NCBI RefSeq assembly: GCF_037975245.1
Contig: NC_092573.1
Location: 74,501-138,500, forward strand
Length of the DNA: 64,000 nucleotides
Direction of reading: 5' to 3'
Source: Apostichopus japonicus
Taxonomy: Eukaryota > Echinodermata > Holothuroidea > Aspidochirotida > Stichopodidae
Shown: positions 12,201-60,484 of the stretch, one piece after another
How the letters are laid out: the number at the start of each line of letters is the position of its first letter
Numbering within the stretch: position 1 is the stretch's first letter
Notes under the pieces: generated by a model
What the model was told of the DNA's origin: nothing
What the model saw: only the letters and a program-made list of their open reading frames with translations
The model's database searches: none
Position numbers and translations under genes: made by a program

Positions 12201-15200
12201 CCGTGCGATGTTTTCAAGAGAAGTAGTATTTGCTAAGGCAATGTTGTTATTGTTTATCAACCTTGCTTTGAAGATAGCTGCCAAGTCAAAATCAGAAAAA
12301 GAAATCCTCCCGCATAGCTCAGCTACCAGTAATGCAGAGGCCATGCAAGACATGGAAAGAATATTAATAATCCTATGCTCTCTAGTTTAGTTAAAACAGG
12401 GGGAAAAATGACCACTTAGTGCCCTTTAACAGTTTGACCAGGATAAATTGAGCCCTAGGGATTTAATTAAGACTCGTCCTGTCATTCCGTGATCTAATAT
12501 TTATCAATGTTTGATATCTATAAGAGACTAGCATTAATCCGTTCACCCGGTTCAAGTGAAGATGATGAATTAAGAGAGGTATAACGACCATAGAAGTAGA
12601 AAGAGGAGACTGACTCACTTGCCGGCCAAGTACAGTTAGGCAAACTTGCAAACCCTGAAGCAAAGGCAATGCTGCATGCAGATTTTAAAGCAAAATTACA
12701 GTCACAGGGAAATAATGTGTACTTTCAATTTGTCTTTAAGACTTTAGGTATGTCGCCAGAACATTTCTGCCGTAAAGAAATAATAATTTGGTAGATTAAA
12801 AGCACCAATTAATCCAAACTAATCACTATTGTAAAAACTGTTGTCTTTAGGATCCACACTCAGGTATGGTTAATGTTATATATAAATTGGCATGTCACTC
12901 TCCTCCTATATCTATACCAAGGATGGACAGAGAAACGAGCACAAAGAATTGTTGAATTAAATCACGCTGCAACAACCACCAACCTTTGGCCTGCTTCCTC
13001 TTCTTTCCGTCGTAATCCAATCTTCTACTCTCCATCTTCTTACGGTGGTGCTAAAAAAACAAATTTCAAATTCACTGATAAATCCAAAACCACATTCCTC
13101 CTCTCTTTCTGATCTCGGTTTTAAAAAACTGTCAGAATTTACGGACCTCAGTTTCTACTTCACCATCGACAATCAGAACTACCTGCAGTAAAGCTAAATA
13201 TGTCCCACTGCTTGCATGGTGAGAGTGTGTGGGTGTGGACCATGAGGGGGGAGGGGGGTGGGGAGAGAGAGAAGAGATTCATTTCATATGCTGACAGAAA
13301 ATGAAGCGCATTGTGACATTGTGTCTTTTGAAAAAGACAAGGTTTGGTGCACAGTATTGACCGTGTCACACAATGGAAAAGGAAACGTCCAAACATAACT
13401 TTTGGGCACCACCAACCCAAAATTTCTGTGTTGACTATATATCAATTCACCAAATATTACAAATAATCAAATCTTTCAAACCGTATTTCAACACTATTAA
13501 TTTCGTGTAGAAACAGTATTTTCCACCATCATCTCTCTCCAAAATGCCATTCAAAAAGTCTGTTGTACTATTTGGCAACAAGGTCTCAAAACTATTGTAA
13601 CATACTTTCTCTATGAAACTACTTATAACAATCACTCATCATATTCCAAACACTTCAAAATGCTTGACATGATGTTGATATCAGGGAATTTATCCAGCTG
13701 TTCATCAGAGGTGATTTTGTTTTTCAAAGTAGTGGGTTTGAACTTCACAGACAAATATCTAAAAAATAAAATGCCTGTCAATATAAGTTTGTCACAATGA
13801 AATGCATCATCTGAGCAACTTATTTTGGTTCCACAAAGATTAAAATGAACTTGGCAACATAAAAGTAAAAAACAACAACCACAGGATATCCTCATAAGGG
13901 TGAGACAAGTTGGTTTATAACATAAACATGTCATGAGACATGCTCAAGATTCAGTGATATAGTATCTACCTAGTGTAATATGTACTGGGTGATTGGAACT
14001 CATATCTCTTTCAAAATTAAAACAATACTTTATCATGAGTGTCAAAGAGAGGCAGGATGCATGAATGCACTGAAGTTCGAATTCCTGAGATTTTGTCTTT
14101 GAAAGTTACTCAAATCTGATACTTGCGAAACGATACATGCTGAATACATACAATGTCAGAGATCACTTGTTTTCTAACATTTTCACAGTAACAGCTATAA
14201 ATTCTGCACAAGACTTACACAGTGGCATACGCAGAGATGTCCAGAGCTAGTTCAGCTGCCCAAGAGACAATTATGTTGATGGGGCCCACCCTCCTCCCCT
14301 TCCCTTCCCGTCCCTGCCCTCCCTCCTTTCTCCTTTCTGCATTTAGGAATCTTAACCTCTGCTTTGCATTACATTGTAAGTACTTCTTACATTAATTTCT
14401 TTCAGTTCTTTGTTTTTTAGATGCTCCAGGGGTTCAATAAAGTTCTGCACTACATTGATGTCCAAGCTATCTTTCACTTCTGATAACTGTTTCATAGCTT
14501 CGCCACAGTCCTTCAGAGCCATACCTGACAAGAAAGTAGGAGAAGAAATGAAGTACTTGACCCAGAAATTCCAAATACACTGATTGTTCCATTTTATGAT
14601 TAAAATGCTCTGTGAGTATTCTTGATTTAAAGTGATCTTAAAAAAGCAAACCCCAATTTGATTGCAAATTTGTCAAGTCTTGTTTTAAGACACACAATTA
14701 ACTTTGATAAGTTGTTGACATTCAAAAGAAACTGCTATCAGTCCAGGTTGTATTTGGATATGATACTTTTAAATTATTCGAAATGGTCATACAAACCTAT
14801 AAGGCTTAAAGGTTGTGAAGACTCGCTCAAAAAGAAACGTCTCATGCCGGTAATCTGACCAAGTTTCGAATGAGGTGTAACAGAAGTGTTAGACACCACC
14901 ATCGATCCTAGAAAATACACACACAGAGCTTGCTACCGTCGGTAATTAGACACTAGTGTACAGTCAGTACATACAGCTGTGGTCAATACCCACAGCACAG
15001 TGTACAAACAATACAGCGATGGACATCTCAGGTCCAGCTAAAGATAACTAGGTATCACGTTTCATTACTGTACTGTCTGCATTTTGTAGCGACACAAAGA
15101 AAACGTAACTTCCAAGCAACGGAAAGTTAACTTTTTCAGATGGCCGCACGCGGTTTGGGGCGAGTCTTCAATGCCTTTAATGAAAGAGGCTGGACTACTA

Positions 15201-38870: not shown

Positions 38871-42784
<3,914 letters not shown>

Positions 42785-48988: not shown

Positions 48989-49753
48989 CGCTATACTGAA
49001 AAGCTCGCGCAGTTTACAATACATAGGTTGCAGGGAAATCTAGGTTTGGTCTTGTGGAGCTGCTAACAACTTACTGACAAGTAGCATAATGCATGACTGT
49101 GGGACCCCTCCACCCGTCCCCTCTCCTTGCCGCCACTATCACCAGGTAAGCTCCCCGTCACTGGTAGGCTGTTTTTCGCAATATTTTTCTTTATACAAGC
49201 CGGGCTTCGATACTCACCAGTAAACAAAGTTACTTAAAGGGTGTGAAGAGTGAAGACTCGCGCAAAAAGAAACGTCCAAATGCCGGTAATCTGACCTAGC
49301 TTCGAATGAGGTGTAAGAGAAGTGTTAGACACCACCATCGATCCCAGAAAATACACACACAGCTTGATACCGTCGGTAATTAGACACTATAGCAGTGTTC
49401 TCCGCAGGTCATTTTTTTGTCCGGGTGGCAATCGCCGTCCTGGGGGTAATCGCCGTCCTGGGGGAGGGGTCTAAGGGGAGGGGGTGTCCCCCTCCGCTTT
49501 GGAAAATTTTTGCCCTCCGAAGGTGGGCTAGACGCCAAATGGTGCAATATTTGGTGCTATATTTGCCTTGCATGTATCTCCAGGAATTGCTATCTTTTAG
49601 GCAGTGTTTTAAATTTTCTCTTACGTTTGCCAAATGACAAAAAATAAGAACACTTCAAAATTGTTGCTGAAATATGAGTAGTAATGAATAGGCCCTAAGT
49701 CCAATGAAAAATTATTCTACACTGTGCAAGGCTAACCCAACACAGCCTGTGCT

Positions 49754-50103
49754 CAGGGGCGTAGCGAAGAGGTTTTGTCGGGGGGGGGTGTGGAGAATTT
49801 GATTTGCCGACGGATCTGGAAGTGGTGACTGAAATGGGGGAGGGGTCTAAGGGGAGGGGGTTTTCCCTTTGGAAAATTTTTAGTTTTGAAACGTCCTTAG
49901 ATGCAATCTGGTGCATATTTTAAGTCAAATTTGGCACGGAAGAAGCTCCCTTTCTCCTTTTCTCTATTCAGCTTTCCTTCTTTCTTCCCCTTCCGCTCTC
50001 TTCACCTTTTCTCCTTTTGCCGACAGACCCAAAATTTGCCGACAGCGACCAAATTATTGGGGGGTGTGACACCCCCCACACTCCCCCGCTCGCTACGCCC
50101 CTG
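49754..50103. mobile_element. hAT-type miniature element, 350 bp, nested
   Basis: Ends CAGGGGCGTAGCGA and TCGCTACGCCCCTG are perfect 14-bp inverted repeats flanked by the exact 8-bp duplication CCTGTGCT (49746-49753 and 50104-50111). The interior has GGGGAGGGGTCTAAGGGGAG and a poly-G/poly-C pair. Confidence 0.93.
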
Positions 50104-50819
50104 CCTGTGCTTGACTGGGATAACTGCCAAGTTCAGGCATATCAACCAATTATCAGTCCTATATTAGACAGATGCACACAATGAATGAAAGAATGATAAA
50201 TAGATGATCAAATAACAAATTAGTCTTTATTTATTTCAACACCAACAGGATAACAATTGCAGTGAGAAAGTTGAAAAGAAATAAAGTTTATCAACTTCAT
50301 GACTTTTGAAGTTCGTAAAAACCCGTCCATTTACAACATTCACTGTATAGAGAACAAAACTCTGAAAATCAGTAGAGAAATTACCAATTGTGTACGAAAA
50401 GTAGGTTGGCACACCTTTCAAATTTTACGAAAGCTCGAGCAAAATACTTTCGAAAAATTCACGCGAAACTGGCATTTCGTGCTAAATGCAACTAATTTCA
50501 TGTAAACAAGGCTCTAGTACACCCATTTATGAATTAACCATAAGACCACATCTGGTGTTGAGCGGCAGAAAAAGAAAGTATTTTCTAAAATTTTCACAAA
50601 GAAAGGAAAAATTACTATCCTACCATAGTTAAGTGTATAGTAAATAGCCTAACCACTTCGTCGGTTACGGATCTCACGTAACAACAAAAACACAACTTAA
50701 ATTGTATTTTGCGAAGTTGACGTTCTCTACAAGGACATGGAAACAATATTTAGCATTTAGTTAATCATGCCAAGTGGCCTAAAACATGGGATTGCACGTT
50801 TTACTTTCATAAAGATGGC

Positions 50820-51202
50820 CAGTGGCGTAGGAAGGTACTTTTGAGTGGGGGGGGGGGCTGAAGACTGATGGCCGGCCTGGGGGAGGGGTCTAAGGGGAGG
50901 GGGTTTCCCCCTCCCCTTTGGAATTTTTTGCATTTCCAGGTAGCCTCAGATGCAATTTGGTGCAATATAGCACAATTCAACCCACCCACTCCATTTTGTA
51001 AACTTAATTTTGTATTTTCACCAGGCTTTATAGATGCAATTTGGTGCTCCAAATGAGATTTTTTTTTCTCATTTAGAAATGAAAAAGGGGTTTTCTGACC
51101 TGCGAAGCGGGGGGTGGGGGCGGAATGATACTTCCGCCCCTCCACATTTTTCACTGGGGGGGGGGGCTGGCGCCCCCCAGCCCCCCGGTTCCTACGCCCT
51201 TG
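50820..51202. mobile_element. hAT-type miniature element, 383 bp, nested
   Basis: Ends CAGTGGCGTAGGAA and TTCCTACGCCCTTG (two mismatches) lie within the exact 8-bp duplication AAGATGGC (50812-50819 and 51203-51210). It shares the GAGGGGTCTAAGGGGAGGGG motif with the neighbouring elements and ends in GGGGGGCTGGCGCCCCCCAG, itself a near-palindrome. Confidence 0.92.
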
Positions 51203-51724
51203 AAGATGGCCATACTGTAGCTATTGAGGCCTTGATATCGTGCTATGTCTGTATGGTATAGACTGTGCCTGGTGTATCATGGGGAATAGATTGTTTTGTT
51301 CATGCGAAGGAGTCAGTTGGCTTGAGGTGTGTTTTACTTACCCTAATGTTACGGGATATTTACCTACTTTTCTTGAACGTATAAGATAATATTTCGCATA
51401 ACTTTACCGATCCTTTACTGACTGACCTAATTAATTCTTGAGTGGAGCCAAAATAGTTTACTCCATGAAAAGTTTTTTTGGAAACGTGCCAAAAATGTTA
51501 AAAAACAGGTGTTAGACGGGGTTGTTTTGCAAGGTACCTTGGAAAACTCGAAACACATGAAGCCAGCCTACCGTGATATTCAAGTAGGGTTAAACACTGC
51601 AGTTTTAAACTGATGTACGTATCGTGCACGCTGTTCATTGTTAGGCATTCTAGAAACGGGACTTTGCCGAACGTAGTTTGTTTCATAATATCGACAGTTT
51701 TGTAAATCGTCGCGGCCGCGGCAG

Positions 51725-53447
51725 CAGTGGCGTCGCCAAGGGGGGGCCAGGGGGGGCACGTGCCCCCCTGTAAAACCTAGTGCCCCCCCGAGTGCCCCCC
51801 CATCTGAGATTTGGGTTGGTAAAAAAATATATATATATATTTTGTTATATTCAACTCCCATCATCTGAGTTGGACAAAGAAGCACAGTATAATTTGTATT
51901 TTCTTCAAATGATCTGCGAAAAAATGAACAAGTTTATCCTTGAACGTCGGGTATCGAAGTCGTAACCCGCGCCATCACAACAGGTGTCGATATTTACATT
52001 GAATGTGTCAGTGCTCACGCCATACCAGCGGATATACAAGTCCGCTTCGCGAGCTATATGACTGTGAGAAGGGAGGGTACTGCAATATGTTGCTTAGTCT
52101 GGGGTTCACAGGTTAGGAGCTGACGAAATGTGAGAATGTGAGGGTCCGCAGGCTCCATACTTGCCTATATTTGTGGACCCATATATTAACCCTGTTGTGT
52201 AGGGGGTGCAGAGGTCATTTGAGGTCAGATGCTTGTAGGAACAAATGGCGAATGTTCACACCTGCATACTGAGCCATACTCGATGTGTGATCAAACTTTG
52301 GATTGCATGGTGAGATCCCTGATAGGAGCCAATAACGATGCTGGAACCTGTTACATCTTAATAGATAATGGGCGAAAACGAGAAGGACAAGAAAGGAGTC
52401 GGGGTCATGCACACATTAATTCAACAAATGTAGGTTCTATTGATAGGGTTAGGCATAATATCGACAGCATGTGGTTCATATCCTCTGCAAAATTCTGCGC
52501 CTTGTTAAAATCATTACCTCAAAAACAGCAATTTCTGGAGATATCTTCAGATCGAATTTAGCATCAAATGTGGCAGCATTTTGCATCTAGCCCATCCTCC
52601 GTATGCGAAAATTTTCCAAAGGGGAGGGGGGGGGGCAGTGGCGGCGGAACCGGGGGGCTTGGGGGCTCAGCCCCCCAATGAAAAAGTTGAAGGGGCAAAT
52701 GCATGATAAGCCCCCCCCCCCCCCAATATTTACCAAGGCTCCGAAACGTGCATCTGCCCATTTTTCAATGCATACTTGTCGATCTGTCCGATGCACACGT
52801 ATACTATATAGGTGTAATAATTTTACAAAATGCTGGGGGACCCTCGGCCTGTCCCCTGGCTATAGACCATATTGTCACCCCAACCGCGTCTTCACGCCCC
52901 GTGAAAAGTGGAAGCAGTGAGTGTGAGTACCGGTAAGCGCAACACAACTTCGTCTTAGGCCAATGACTTGCTTCATTTCAGCCAGTTCTCCAACATCCCC
53001 TTACTACACTCAAAAACGTCTTTGCGAGTACACTACGAGTAATAGCTACTCTCTTAAAACACCATCGAATATACAAATTACAATGTTTTTACAGACTTTT
53101 ACGTGCAATCTGAGAAATTGCATGGGCTTGAGACCAATATTTTAGGGCTAGGTATTCGCAGCATAAAACACTCGGGAAGTGCCGTTTCCGGCCATCTGGG
53201 GGTTTGAAAAACCCAAAATTTTCTTGTACGCTCCGCGCCAACCGATGGTGGCGCTCCGCTTAGATAGTCTCTACACATTAGCCCCCCCCCCCAATAATTT
53301 TCCCGTTCCGCCGCGCCTGGAGGGGCACCCCTCCCCTTAGACCCCTCCCCAGGACGTTGATCCGTATCCACCTAAGTGCCCCCCCCATCAAATGATGGTG
53401 CCCCCCCTGTGCCCCCCCCCAGACTGAAAAGTCTGGTGACGCCACTG
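51725..53447. mobile_element. hAT-type element, 1723 bp, nested and itself interrupted
   Basis: Ends CAGTGGCGTCGCCA and TGGTGACGCCACTG (one mismatch) lie within the exact 8-bp duplication CGCGGCAG (51717-51724 and 53448-53455). The left part begins with a poly-G/poly-C hairpin-like stretch. The interior includes several frames of up to 110 codons but no recognisable transposase. A further element interrupts it at 52636-53319. Confidence 0.9.
52636..53319. mobile_element. hAT-type element, about 684 bp, fourth nesting level
   Basis: Ends CAGTGGCGGCGGAAC and GTTCCGCCGCGCCTG form imperfect inverted repeats (13 of 15). It sits in a GGGGAGGGG run of the host element: sequence on either side resumes the shared AAAGGGGAGGGG / GGGGCACCCCTCCCC context. 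The 8-bp duplication cannot be read exactly because the target is a G run. Confidence 0.78.
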
Positions 53448-54788
53448 CGCGGCAGAAACAAAACATGTAGTTTCGATCAAATTCGTCACTCTTAAAGAAT
53501 ATGAGTGACTTTTAGAAAATGTTTGACGAGGTGCCAGTGTATTTTTTTTGTCCGGGCGGCCGAGTTTTTCGTCCGGGCGGTAGCTTTATGTCCGGGCGCT
53601 AGCCAGCCTTTTCAAATTTTGTCCGGGCGGCGCGCCCGGACAAAACCGGTAGTGGAGAACACTGCTATAGTGTACAGTCAGTACATACAGCTGCGGTCAA
53701 TACCCACAGCACATTGTACAAACGTTACAGCGATGGACATCCCAGGTCTAGCTAAAGATAACAAGGTATCACGTTCATTACTGTCTGCATTTTGTAGCGA
53801 CACGAACAAAATGTCACTTGCAAGCAACAGAAAGTTAACAAAAGGTTTGGGGCGAGTCTTCAATGCCTTTAAGTGTTCAGGTTCACCTTATCTCAATATA
53901 TTGCACCGGTATTCTGTACTGAAAAAAAAACCATAGCAAATTTGTACATTATATACTTCGATTCGATGGTTCTGAATACATTTCGTTTGGCACAACCATA
54001 CTCGACATTCATTCCCCCTATAAACCTATGCCATCTACCCCACCATTTTCACATAAAATTTGGCAATGGTTCGAGATTGGTGGTGGAGCAGGAGTTAGAC
54101 AAGTCTTTTGTGTTGAAAATGGCAGTCTTTGACTTTCTTGTACCCGTGTGATAAGCACTGCTGTGTAAAAAAATTAAGACGGGAAGTGATCACTTTCCCG
54201 CGGACCCACTGTGGTAGGCCCTGCTTACACTGGTAACTACAGTATGTATGTATGTACTATTCCCCATCATTTAATTCTAACATAAATCCTAGTGTTTTGT
54301 TACTGTGGTGATCACCGTCTTTCTTTCTTCTTCTTTTTTTTTTTGTCTTCCTTTCTCTCTGTTTTCCTCCTCATAATTATCGCTAGTTTTAAACATATTA
54401 CTATTAGAGCATTGTTTACGTTGGGTTTTTTCTCTTGTGTGCGTTCCAAGGCATGGTAACACTGATTCTCTGATTTTGTACGTTCATTCATAGTTCATAC
54501 CATAGAAATTGATGGTTCATACACCGGTTTAGTTTTCAATTAGGAGCGTTAGTATGTATGAGAGTAACTTAGTGTACATGTATGGTTATCATATCACTTG
54601 TGACAAGCCTAACCACTATTATACTCTTTGAACGCCAGTCTCCCGGCGTAACGATCGAGAACTGATGAACGTATAATTATAAAGAATGTTCAGGCCTATA
54701 TCAAAGTGAATGGTATCAGTTTCGGTTCCTTCGTAGTTGAATGTAACCGTTCTCTTTTGATGTGGTGCTGAAATACGGTCGTAGAATA

Positions 54789-57800: not shown

Positions 57801-60484
57801 TTGAAGAGGAGACCTTTTGTTTGCCAAAACTGTACAAGTAACCTTGAACAGGCCAATCACCCAGCTGGTCTTTATGAATTCACATTCTTGTGAAATCGCG
57901 AGCACTCTTGCCTGATGGTGTTGCTTTGATTCAGAGATTCACGTTAGGACCTCTATGACTGCGCCCTCTGTTGAAACGTAAGAGAGCCTCCTTGGGAATC
58001 GCTTTCGTAGCTGATTGAGGTTTTTCTCTTTTGCTCTGGACTGAGAGTGTAAGCCTGTAAGGTATATACCCCACTGCTGCATGTCAATTTTACCTTTTAA
58101 TAAACAGGACTGAATTCCACATTTTATCTAGACCTGTGCCTGAGAGTAAAGAAGGTATGAAGATTGGTGAGAACCTAACTTTACACTCAAAATTTTTGGA
58201 AATTTCATGTTTCAAGCTCTCGGTTTTGAAAAGAGGCAATTTCCACAGTATGTTCATTGTACGATGGCTCAAGTTTTGCTCTCATTGAGAGTTTTGAACG
58301 TCAGTGGCCGGTTTTGCTCTGCAAAGTTTATTGTCTGGGTCCCTTTTCCTACCAAAGCAGAAAATAGTCATTGAAGAAACCAATTTTCCTTACAGGTCGG
58401 TGTGCTAGATGACGGTGGTATCCCACCTGGTGCTTCGTTCGGCTTGGAATCCGTCGGGACTATTAACTCTACTGGAGTCACCGACAGCAGAACTCCGTCC
58501 AAAGGCAAACCTGGAGCAGTATCCACAAATGTAGCGCAAAAGAAACTGAAAACCACTGCAGCTCCAACTAAGGTAAGAGGTACACCATCTTACATCAGAG
58601 AAGACAGTTAGAGAGGGTAGCAAAAAGCAATTATATACTTCTACGTATACTTGGATACAGAGAAAAATGGAAATGAAATGTTCTGATCAACAGTCGAAAT
58701 AATTTGCCACTGGGGATACTTTACTTACCACTCATTCAGGCTTATGACCAGTGAGAACTGTTAAAATTTGTCTAAGAGCTTGTTACAGTTTGTTTTTTAT
58801 TGTTATCTCTAGCTGGATTATGCTTGGCACTTCTAACCTTTGAGAATGATTTGGCTCGCTCTGGCAGTGGGACCAAAACTTTGACAAAAAAGTACATTTT
58901 CATGATTTTGTGATTATTTATTACACAGTATTACCAATAAAGAGTTTGTCAAGACCAACGAGGTTGAATGCATAATGCAATATAGTGTAACAAGTGTGTG
59001 ACCAATAAGCTACAGGCATCTCAATCAGATGAGATTCTCAGCAATGCCTGCAATAAACATAAATGCCAGATTGCTTTCCTTGGCACTGCACAAAATCACC
59101 CAGGCTCAAATTCAATAGACAAATATCAATGTCCTCAAGAGACATGGTAATTTTTCAATGAATCACTGTTTTCTTCTTCATTTTTTTATTGACACAGGAT
59201 CCTAGTAAATCGAGTTCATCCAAGGGAAGTAAAGAGTTCAAAGAAGGAAAGGTGTCTTCAAAAGAGGGCAAAAGCTCTTCAAAGGTAGCAAGTAAGAGAC
59301 CCTCCCAGGGGTCGTCCAGAGGTGAACCCTCTGTCAAACGTAAAAAGGATTATTCTCTATCCACAAAGTCTGCAAAATCCACGAGCAGCGAGAAGTCCTC
59401 TGCGGGCAATGAACAGTCCTCAAAGAAGGGACCCTCCACGGCCAAGAAAAAGAAAAGTCTACCTAAAGTTAGTAAGGAAAAGAAAGCAGAATTATTTTTA
59501 CCTGAAATAAGTGTAGAGCACAAAACCAAATCAGAACCTGTCAAGAAACCCTCTTTACCTCCCTTTGAGGATGAAGTTAGCACAGGGGAGGTGGATGCAC
59601 CGGATAGCCCTAGCTCTAAGAGCACCGGTAGTTTTTCCTCGCTGCCTCGGGGAGGCGGGACGGGTGGGGCCCTGGAGACGCTCATGGCTGAAATTGCAGA
59701 CGACTACGAAGACGAGGAAGATCAAGATTATAACATACCATTCAAGAGAGATTTCCCAAACTCCTCTATTCAAAGTTTGGAACACGACAGCTCATCCTCT
59801 GGGTCGGACTTTGATCAGCTGATCCGTCAGACCATTATGAAGAAAGAAAACTCCTCCAAGAGGAGTGAGAAGCCTGTCAAAGAGGAGACAATGGTGGTGG
59901 AAAAGAAATCAAAATTCGAAAGCAAAACAAAAAGTGAAGACGGTAAGAAAAGCTGGACGAAACCGAAAGACAGCGACTCCAAAGCGAAGACCACCAACGT
60001 CAGGAAGAAGAGCGTGGGTAACGAGAAAGGTAAGACCTCGAGCGCCAAGAGCAAAGCGTCCGAAAAGAAAGAGAGCAAAGCAGCCGAGAGCAAAGCAAAG
60101 TTGTCGTCGAATTCAAAGCCGAAGAAATCGGAAAAGCCAAAGACAGAGACGAAGAGGAGATCTGCGGAAGGAAAAAGCAAAGTCAGCGAGAGTAAGACTA
60201 AATCAGATGGGAAAGTAAAAACGTCGGATGGAAAGACTAAAGAGAGTAGCAAAGAGAATGAGAAGAAAGGCGTGCAAACGAACAACATGGACTATCTCTA
60301 TGAGCTGGTTGACTTACACAAAAGACTAATGGCTCTAAAAGACCGAGAAAAATTACAAAAAGTTGTGGATCTGATAGGTGAAACCGGGGATTTCAAGATC
60401 ACAGATAAGACATTCGACTTTGACCTCTGTTCACTGGATAAACCGACTGTTAGGAAATTGCAAGAATATGTACCTCCACTTTGA
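54789..60484 (+). CDS. MLLT1/MLLT3: YEATS/AHD transcription-elongation protein (AF9/ENL family)
   Basis: Subunit of the super elongation complex and of DOT1L complexes; it reads acylated histone H3 through its YEATS domain. Exons 54789-54800, 55709-55886, 56766-56992, 58396-58572 and 59198-60484 join in frame (1881 nt, 626 residues plus stop). YEATS occupies about residues 5-137: [75 protein letters not shown], then [20 protein letters not shown]. The reader-pocket residues are visible in GFTHDW, HESF and GYGGF. A long Lys/Ser-rich linker and the acidic [10 protein letters not shown] follow. The C-terminal AHD (about 561-626) reads [20 protein letters not shown] and [20 protein letters not shown], the segment that binds AFF4, DOT1L or CBX8. 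One invertebrate gene corresponds to both vertebrate paralogues. Confidence 0.96.
55709..55886 (+). CDS. MLLT1/MLLT3: YEATS gene exon 2
   Basis: Acceptor TTACATTCACAG, donor GTAAGCTTGG. Encodes the first half of the YEATS domain; ends in phase 1. Confidence 0.96.
55887..56765 (+). other. YEATS gene intron 2
   Basis: Featureless apart from chance frames. Confidence 0.8.
56766..56992 (+). CDS. MLLT1/MLLT3: YEATS gene exon 3
   Basis: Acceptor GTGCTTAACAG, donor GTAAGTAG. Encodes [17 protein letters not shown] through [11 protein letters not shown], completing the YEATS fold; ends in phase 0. Confidence 0.97.
56993..58395 (+). other. YEATS gene intron 3
   Basis: Contains a (TG)n run near 57547-57567. 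Nothing else is recognisable. Confidence 0.8.
58396..58572 (+). CDS. MLLT1/MLLT3: YEATS gene exon 4
   Basis: Acceptor TTTTCCTTACAG, donor GTAAGAGGT. Encodes 59 linker residues ([20 protein letters not shown] and onwards) without a named domain. Confidence 0.93.
59198..60484 (+). CDS. MLLT1/MLLT3: YEATS gene last exon: basic linker and AHD
   Basis: Acceptor TATTGACACAG. A single 428-codon exon containing Ser/Lys-rich sequence (candidate nuclear localisation, for example [14 protein letters not shown]), an acidic patch and the AHD, ending PPL then TGA. Confidence 0.97.

Follow-up and report, generated by a model that had tools for sequence, protein, structure and literature searches.

Transposable elements nested within one another are an established phenomenon, and TRANScendence reportedly builds its chronologies on interruption, taking insertion order from which element interrupts which. 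Duplication of a TTAA target is a trait of DNA transposons of the piggyBac or Kolobok type. Passages of three reports describe miniature inverted-repeat transposable elements (MITEs) derived by deletion (PMC6004678, PMC1562414, PMC6887750), and according to a section of one of them the AgaP2-P12MITE family was made from parts of two transposon families, its two ends deriving from two P subfamilies, and then multiplied (PMC1562414). The locus described here is an island of transposable elements at 49234–53872 of the window, the whole analysed stretch of 64,000 nucleotides of the Apostichopus japonicus genome (C13:74501–138500). It shares with TRANScendence-type chronologies the use of interruption order and differs from them in that a single island is resolved base by base and with empty sites, not genome-wide. 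Its outer element and most copies of that element are flanked by TTAA, like TTAA-duplicating DNA transposons. Its hAT-type insertions resemble hAT MITEs that arise from autonomous elements by internal deletion in their 8-bp duplications, CAG...CTG ends, and, for h2 and h4, ends common to transposase-bearing elements of the genome, but one of them, h3, contains another hAT element, the fossil h4, which has multiplied together with it. As in that section on AgaP2-P12MITE, h3 is composite and then multiplied, but here a whole hAT element lies inside a hAT-type element.

The island is a real nested transposon cluster, a new and cleanly resolved example of an ordinary kind. It is best read, with a probability of about 95%, as a chain of ordinary cut-and-paste insertions in which h3 arrived with h4 already inside, and the local history consists of five insertions that form three nesting levels at the locus. 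The first-pass annotation of this DNA had described nested non-autonomous elements whose order of insertion is readable from their duplications, and most of its boundaries are correct. It had also called the island five-deep; the nesting stands and the depth does not, as its own list holds four layers, three of which formed locally, and interruption order alone overcounts nesting because a layer can be inherited. The genome searched comprises 671.6 Mb in 35 contigs, and the best 40 candidates of each boundary search were scored, so that copy counts are lower bounds. The parts of the island are as follows, in window coordinates.

49234–49237, no strand: TTAA, left target duplication of the outer element; TTAA at both sides is also seen in genome copies
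49238–49392, plus strand: left part of the outer TTAA miniature element, known from solo and genome copies
49387–49392: CTATAG, left 6-bp duplication of the inner element, within the outer element (right copy at 53665–53670)
49393–53664, plus strand: inner element with CAGTGTTCTCC ends, a low-copy family
49449–49613, minus strand: module A in the inner element
49754–50103, plus strand: h1, hAT-type MITE within the inner element; target duplication CCTGTGCT at 49746–49753 and 50104–50111
49825–49915, minus strand: module A in h1
50820–51202, minus strand (relative to the 5,064-bp element described below): h2, hAT MITE; target duplication AAGATGGC at 50812–50819 and 51203–51210
50868–50968, minus strand: module A in h2
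51725–53447, plus strand: h3, composite hAT-type element; target duplication CGCGGCAG at 51717–51724 and 53448–53455
52505–52631 and 53320–53356, plus strand: module A in h3, split by h4
52636–53319, plus strand: h4, fossil hAT element inside the h3 family
53155–53285, plus strand: module B, right-subterminal in h4 and common to other hAT groups
53671–53868, plus strand: right part of the outer TTAA miniature element
53869–53872: TTAA, right target duplication of the outer element

A query of 49234–49760 splits cleanly against the genome. Sixteen copies match the outer part and end at 49388–49392, while those of a second set mostly begin at 49392/49393 (three start a few bases earlier and four well inside) and mostly stop at 49753, at the start of h1. 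The outer element has 39 other scored copies (40 scored of 3,400 candidates), and a solo copy in the same window, at ~14806–15180, is a ready reference for the island. Of 25 outer copies examined, 22 have both ends recognised, and 19 of these are bordered by TTAA at either side, the search pattern having included TTAA with up to two mismatches allowed, and the TTAA pair noticed earlier at 49234–49237 and 53869–53872 is seen in the window. At the site where the inner element sits, the 20 outer copies fetched first have CACTAGTG in 19 cases and CACTTGTG in the remaining one. Five copies picked for a match reaching 49392 (L057–L061) all have CACTATAGT uninterrupted, in the context CACTATAGTG in four and CACTATAGTT in L061. 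The inner element entered an outer copy of the variant holding CACTATAGT. The proposal that a 4.28-kb element interrupts a TTAA miniature element thus agrees with the genome copies, which match both pairs of boundaries (49238–53868 and 49393–53664). The TA duplication proposed for the inner element has to be replaced by CTATAG, with CACTATAGT intact in the same five copies and duplications of mostly 5–6 bp in other inner copies.

The inner element has ends CAGTGTTCTCC...GGAGAACACTG with CTATAG at either side, and the copy boundary starts with CAGTG at 49393. When its three insertions and one copy of each target duplication are removed, the window copy is 1,792 bp long; eight copies free of large insertions and deletions measure 1,775–1,825 bp, one of 1,874 bp (L012) has an 80-bp subfamily insert, and one of 1,736 bp (L162) has a deletion. 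The set examined comprises 16 copies and seven later pieces, giving 22 other copies, as two of the pieces belong to a single copy. Both ends are present in 18 copies, counting that of the window, and among these the duplication is an exact 6 bp in eight and 5 bp in four; three are longer (10, 7 and 11 bp, within simple repeats), one is 3 bp, and two have none, while five further copies of the 23 lack a recognisable end. The length expected of hAT elements is 8 bp, which no inner copy has, against 5–6 bp in 12/18. A pattern spanning both inner ends has only 38 exact matches in the genome (16 + 22). Three inner copies (L008, L012, L014) belong to a subfamily with an extra 79–80-bp stretch at inner position 1563. 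L008 and L014 hold unrelated elements inserted 2 bp apart, and L005 and L157 carry one 290-bp hAT-like family near the site of h1 in the window.

The three hAT-type insertions proposed earlier, each between exact 8-mers (CCTGTGCT for h1, AAGATGGC for h2, CGCGGCAG for h3), have boundaries that follow from genome copies and empty sites in other inner copies. Searches with h1 and h2 and their flanks each give 39 other scored places, with most ends within a few bases of the boundaries listed above, although some h1 copies are partial or internally repeated; the left end of h3 at 51725 is likewise supported by genome copies. Alignment to copies elsewhere upholds these boundaries, and the copies mostly have 8-bp duplications: exact in 6/8 for h1 and 6/7 for h2, and present in 19/20 for h3, with 6 bp in the remaining one. 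When 120-base joined flanks were compared with 16 inner copies, the h1 site was uninterrupted in 15, the exception being L005, where a different insertion lies 10 bp from it. The h2 site was intact in 14: L015 carries a separate insertion at a distance of 9 bp, and in L010 the region is deleted. For the h3 site the count was 12, the other four not spanning it. Because other inner copies show these empty sites, h1, h2 and h3 are three independent insertions later than the inner element, and their mutual order is not readable. Pairs of CAG..CTG-type ends with an exact 8-bp duplication number three in the window and zero in total across 200 single-base shuffles, the end pattern having been picked post hoc with the ends already known. 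No coding capacity is recognised in the hAT-type MITEs of the island, and an Rfam search of 49000–54100 gave no match. In the h1 family an internal 138-bp stretch (h1 43–180) is repeated in L154, L155 and L011 (704–1195); such tandem units extend to 2.2 kb in two copies on C1 and could be a starting point for satellite DNA.

These counts also bear on the idea of a single old element of 4.6 kb that has been conserved and copied in one piece. All parts do lie between a single TTAA pair, but the outer element, the inner element, h1, h2 and h3 occur separately in many copies, and the 16 inner copies lack h1, h2 and h3 at the window sites wherever these are spanned. Continuous conservation of the 4.6 kb, which had been named as an outcome that would overturn the nested reading, is not what the genome holds, and a single unit can practically be dismissed.

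The relationship of h4 to h3 is of a different kind. Sequence of h4, or a deletion remnant of it, lies at the same two junctions in all 20 fetched h3 copies, 12 of which came from a search with the h3 left part (11 blind to h4, L046 already known) and eight from a search with h4. Ten of the copies are 1,283–1,394 bp long, h4 having lost a large part of its interior, and ten are 1,679–1,733 bp; 19/20 of these composites lie between their own exact 8-bp duplications. L052 and L053 (C11 near 6.59 and 9.98 Mb) share the same duplication and flanks and are probably a duplicated segment, which leaves 19 independent h3 sites, as the other flanks differ. With h4 and 26-base flanks as the query, 40/40 scored matches span both flanks, under a scoring that favours long matches. 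The ends of h4 in the window are hAT-like and its duplication is inexact (GGGGGGGG / GAGGGGCA); this fossil duplication is best in L056 (GAGGGGGG/GAGGGGGC, 7/8 positions), and complete relatives with h4-type ends have exact 8-bp duplications. Because the fetched copies share these junctions between duplications of their own, h4 entered an ancestor of h3 before the h3 family spread.

The earlier suggestion that 52636–53319 inserted locally into the present h3 copy, as a separate event, draws on the own hAT-like ends of h4 and on a family that looks mobile: left ends of the h4 type are found in non-h3 context (non-G flanks) at 463 places (206 + 257), a count made with an exact 16-base core that is possibly common to related families. 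Six such loci were fetched, with matched pieces 89–96% identical to h4, five starting from its base 1 and one from base 40; four of the six have a ~255–300-base internal stretch unaligned between the pieces, and the fetched sequence ends before the right ends. Against local insertion, 20/20 other h3 copies share the junction, exact 8-bp duplications bracket 19 of these copies, and their differing flanks (only L052 and L053 are alike) exclude duplicates of one locus. A local origin of h4 is accordingly extremely unlikely, and h4 is taken here as inherited within h3.

Transposase-bearing relatives were sought with the hAT domain PF05699 (150 scored of 633 candidates), and 68 transposase-flank stretches were examined, 57 of them flanks of PF05699 matches and 11 further (including L152, which continues L110). 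Complete relatives are present for h2 and h4, a right half only for h3, and none was found for h1 or the inner element. Two complete elements with h4-type ends lie on C17 (L117/L122 and L118/L123, near 6.83 and 7.01 Mb), each 5.52 kb by coordinates and with a 796-codon frame; they are 0.18 Mb apart and have different exact duplications, TATCCGAT and AGGCTGTA. Their left end is 89.3% identical to h4 1–239 and their right end 92.7% identical to h4 366–684. The C17 elements moved recently, because the two copies are nearly identical (99.958% over 4,784 bp and 100% over 788 bp). The complete h2-type element, on C22, is 5,064 bp long with TTTAAAAT exact at both sides and a 752-codon frame, and h2 consists of both its ends joined, in inverted orientation (87.2% and 83.6% identity). 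The h2- and h4-type transposases (P0001 and P0002) both contain DUF4371 (PF14291) and Dimer_Tnp_hAT (PF05699); a comparison of P0001 with PDB sequences gave no match. A right half of the h3 type is present in L149; the transposase that precedes it by ~0.6 kb is split between two frames.

The transposases of the complete h2- and h4-type elements are 36% identical to each other, and the one in L149 is 30% identical to that of the h2 type. This bears on the proposal that one shared hAT transposase moved h1, h2, h3 and h4. Such a source would be in keeping with CAG-type ends in all four, 8-bp duplications in h1–h3, module A in h1, h2 and h3, and module B in h4. However, h2 has the ends of one complete element and h4 those of another, with these two different proteins, and the h3-type half follows a third transposase; h1 is neutral, with evidence neither way. 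A single source is therefore improbable.

Several candidate drivers were tried and rejected. Five stretches (L093, L095, L111, L132, L141) match only the last 36–51 bp of h3, at 80–86%. Of 864 matches to the h1 ends, the first 100 listed include two 2.2-kb end pairs, but these consist of h1 43–180 in tandem expansion and have no 120-codon reading frame. The 68 stretches contain only short end-motif matches to h1, a search miss that does not prove absence. For the inner element no transposase-bearing relative was found among the same stretches; three (L083, L085, L106) match ~110 bp of inner 1454–1564 at 69–72%, but have no inner-type end. Their similarity stops at 1564, near the subfamily insert position 1563.

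Two noncoding sequence modules recur, in right-subterminal position, in several hAT groups whose ends differ. Module A (~100–165 bp) is common to h1, h2, h3 and the inner element despite their different terminal repeats, and is present in 13/68 transposase-flank stretches, the best hit per stretch being in sense orientation in 13/13. Module B (~110 bp, with a conserved core of ~50 bp) is present in h4 and in 21 stretches, with the best hit in sense orientation in 20. Both follow the transposase and lie close to the right terminal repeat; the remaining 59.4 kb of the window contain neither. The stretches fall into 37 rough groups, of which seven have module A and 11 have module B; L142–L152 are not reliably grouped, as their first 360 bases need not be domain. 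In five better-placed pairs (L108–L125, L108–L113, L105–L113, L107–L113, L099–L113) module B is 85–93% identical and the hAT domains are 44–48% identical over 52–63 residues; the pair list also holds one pair at 56% over 25 residues, and 122/187 pairs are without a domain match. A recognisable core is present in 17 of the 20 sense module B stretches, and by eye 16 of these 17 then have a ...CTG-type end within ~110 bp, these ends differing between groups.

It is tentatively suggested, at somewhat less than even odds, that the right ends of hAT elements in this genome are modular, the modules being either exchanged between families or held by a shared constraint on binding or RNA processing; exchange, constraint and common descent are all candidate readings of the modules. 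Several things count against modular ends: B-type fragments occur in either orientation upstream of the C17 pair, L138 has module A within a complete h2-like stretch so that some hits may be neighbours, the control is a single 59.4-kb stretch, and the grouping is rough. A stable RNA fold of module B is not supported (z of -0.65 and -0.22); module A folds better than shuffled sequence in h2 (z of -3.36), probably through a G-run/C-run palindrome, and has z of -1.80 in h1. Motif strings of the modules were unmatched in a literature text search, which does not show that they are unreported.

The distance of the window copy from its family majority is 4.2% for the outer element, 0.96% for the inner element, 2.0% for h1, 1.6% for h2, 1.1% for h3 (left part) and 0.6% for h4, all biased low because the copies compared are best hits. 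The distances fit the outer element being the oldest. The flanking exons are an Oxidored_q6 exon (NADH dehydrogenase 20-kDa subunit) at 40789–41193, ~8 kb from the island, and an ANC1 homology domain exon at 59162–60484, ~5 kb from it. No promoter was located, and genes between it and the flanking exons are possible. The first-pass annotation had proposed a preferred landing site between two housekeeping promoters; the families are dispersed over many contigs, 8/22 other inner copies are also hit, simulations of ten insertions over 23 copies give some copy with at least three in 18%, and nothing has been shown to single out this spot.

That the inner element itself is a hot target, in which other elements favour certain spots, is a separate question. 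Seven of the 22 other inner copies hold an insertion with a 7–10-bp edge repeat, and L156 has an 807-bp insert without a clear duplication. The ten duplication-flanked insertions in 23 inner copies include three pairs within 2–10 bp of each other (p = 0.018 for random placement), and the members of each close pair are different elements, which speaks for favoured spots. The test was, however, post hoc on ten sites, and it left out the eleventh insert (that of L156). A hot target is thus doubtful, though it keeps some weight.

In the preferred chain of insertions, a TTAA element of ~0.37 kb, belonging to the CACTATAG variant, landed between the NADH-dehydrogenase-subunit exon and the ANC1-domain exon, as its ends, the TTAA pair and the solo copies show, after which a 1.79-kb non-autonomous inner element with CAGTGTTCTCC ends entered CTATAG and duplicated 6 bp. 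Into this inner element h1, h2 and h3 went independently, each making an 8-bp duplication, with h3 coming as a unit with an h4 inherited from an ancestor of its family. Each family was most likely moved in trans by its own transposase-bearing relative, and shared ends and duplications suggest that the transposases found here moved the present copies.

Some observations sit less easily with this history. L149 has its h3-type right half without h4, and also without ~18 bp of flanking palindrome, which would fit an excision product as well as a relative free of h4. No h3-type left end was found in the 6.9 kb upstream, a stretch that has frames resembling those of long terminal repeat retrotransposons (named by eye). 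Positions 240–365 of h4 are unmatched in the C17 relatives, so h4 is not simply two joined ends. The distance of the inner element (0.96%) makes it no older than h1–h3, and ages do not separate them. Its 5–6-bp duplication differs from the hAT length, and two of its copies (L009, L010) are rearranged or deleted and less informative.

Comparing every junction with copies elsewhere in the genome resolves the history of this island into five local events and one fossil event, and two non-autonomous families are tied to transposase-bearing elements, one of which moved recently. If modular right ends are real, they would explain the likeness of MITEs with different drivers, and if the modules hold across species, cross-mobilisation and module exchange between hAT families become testable.

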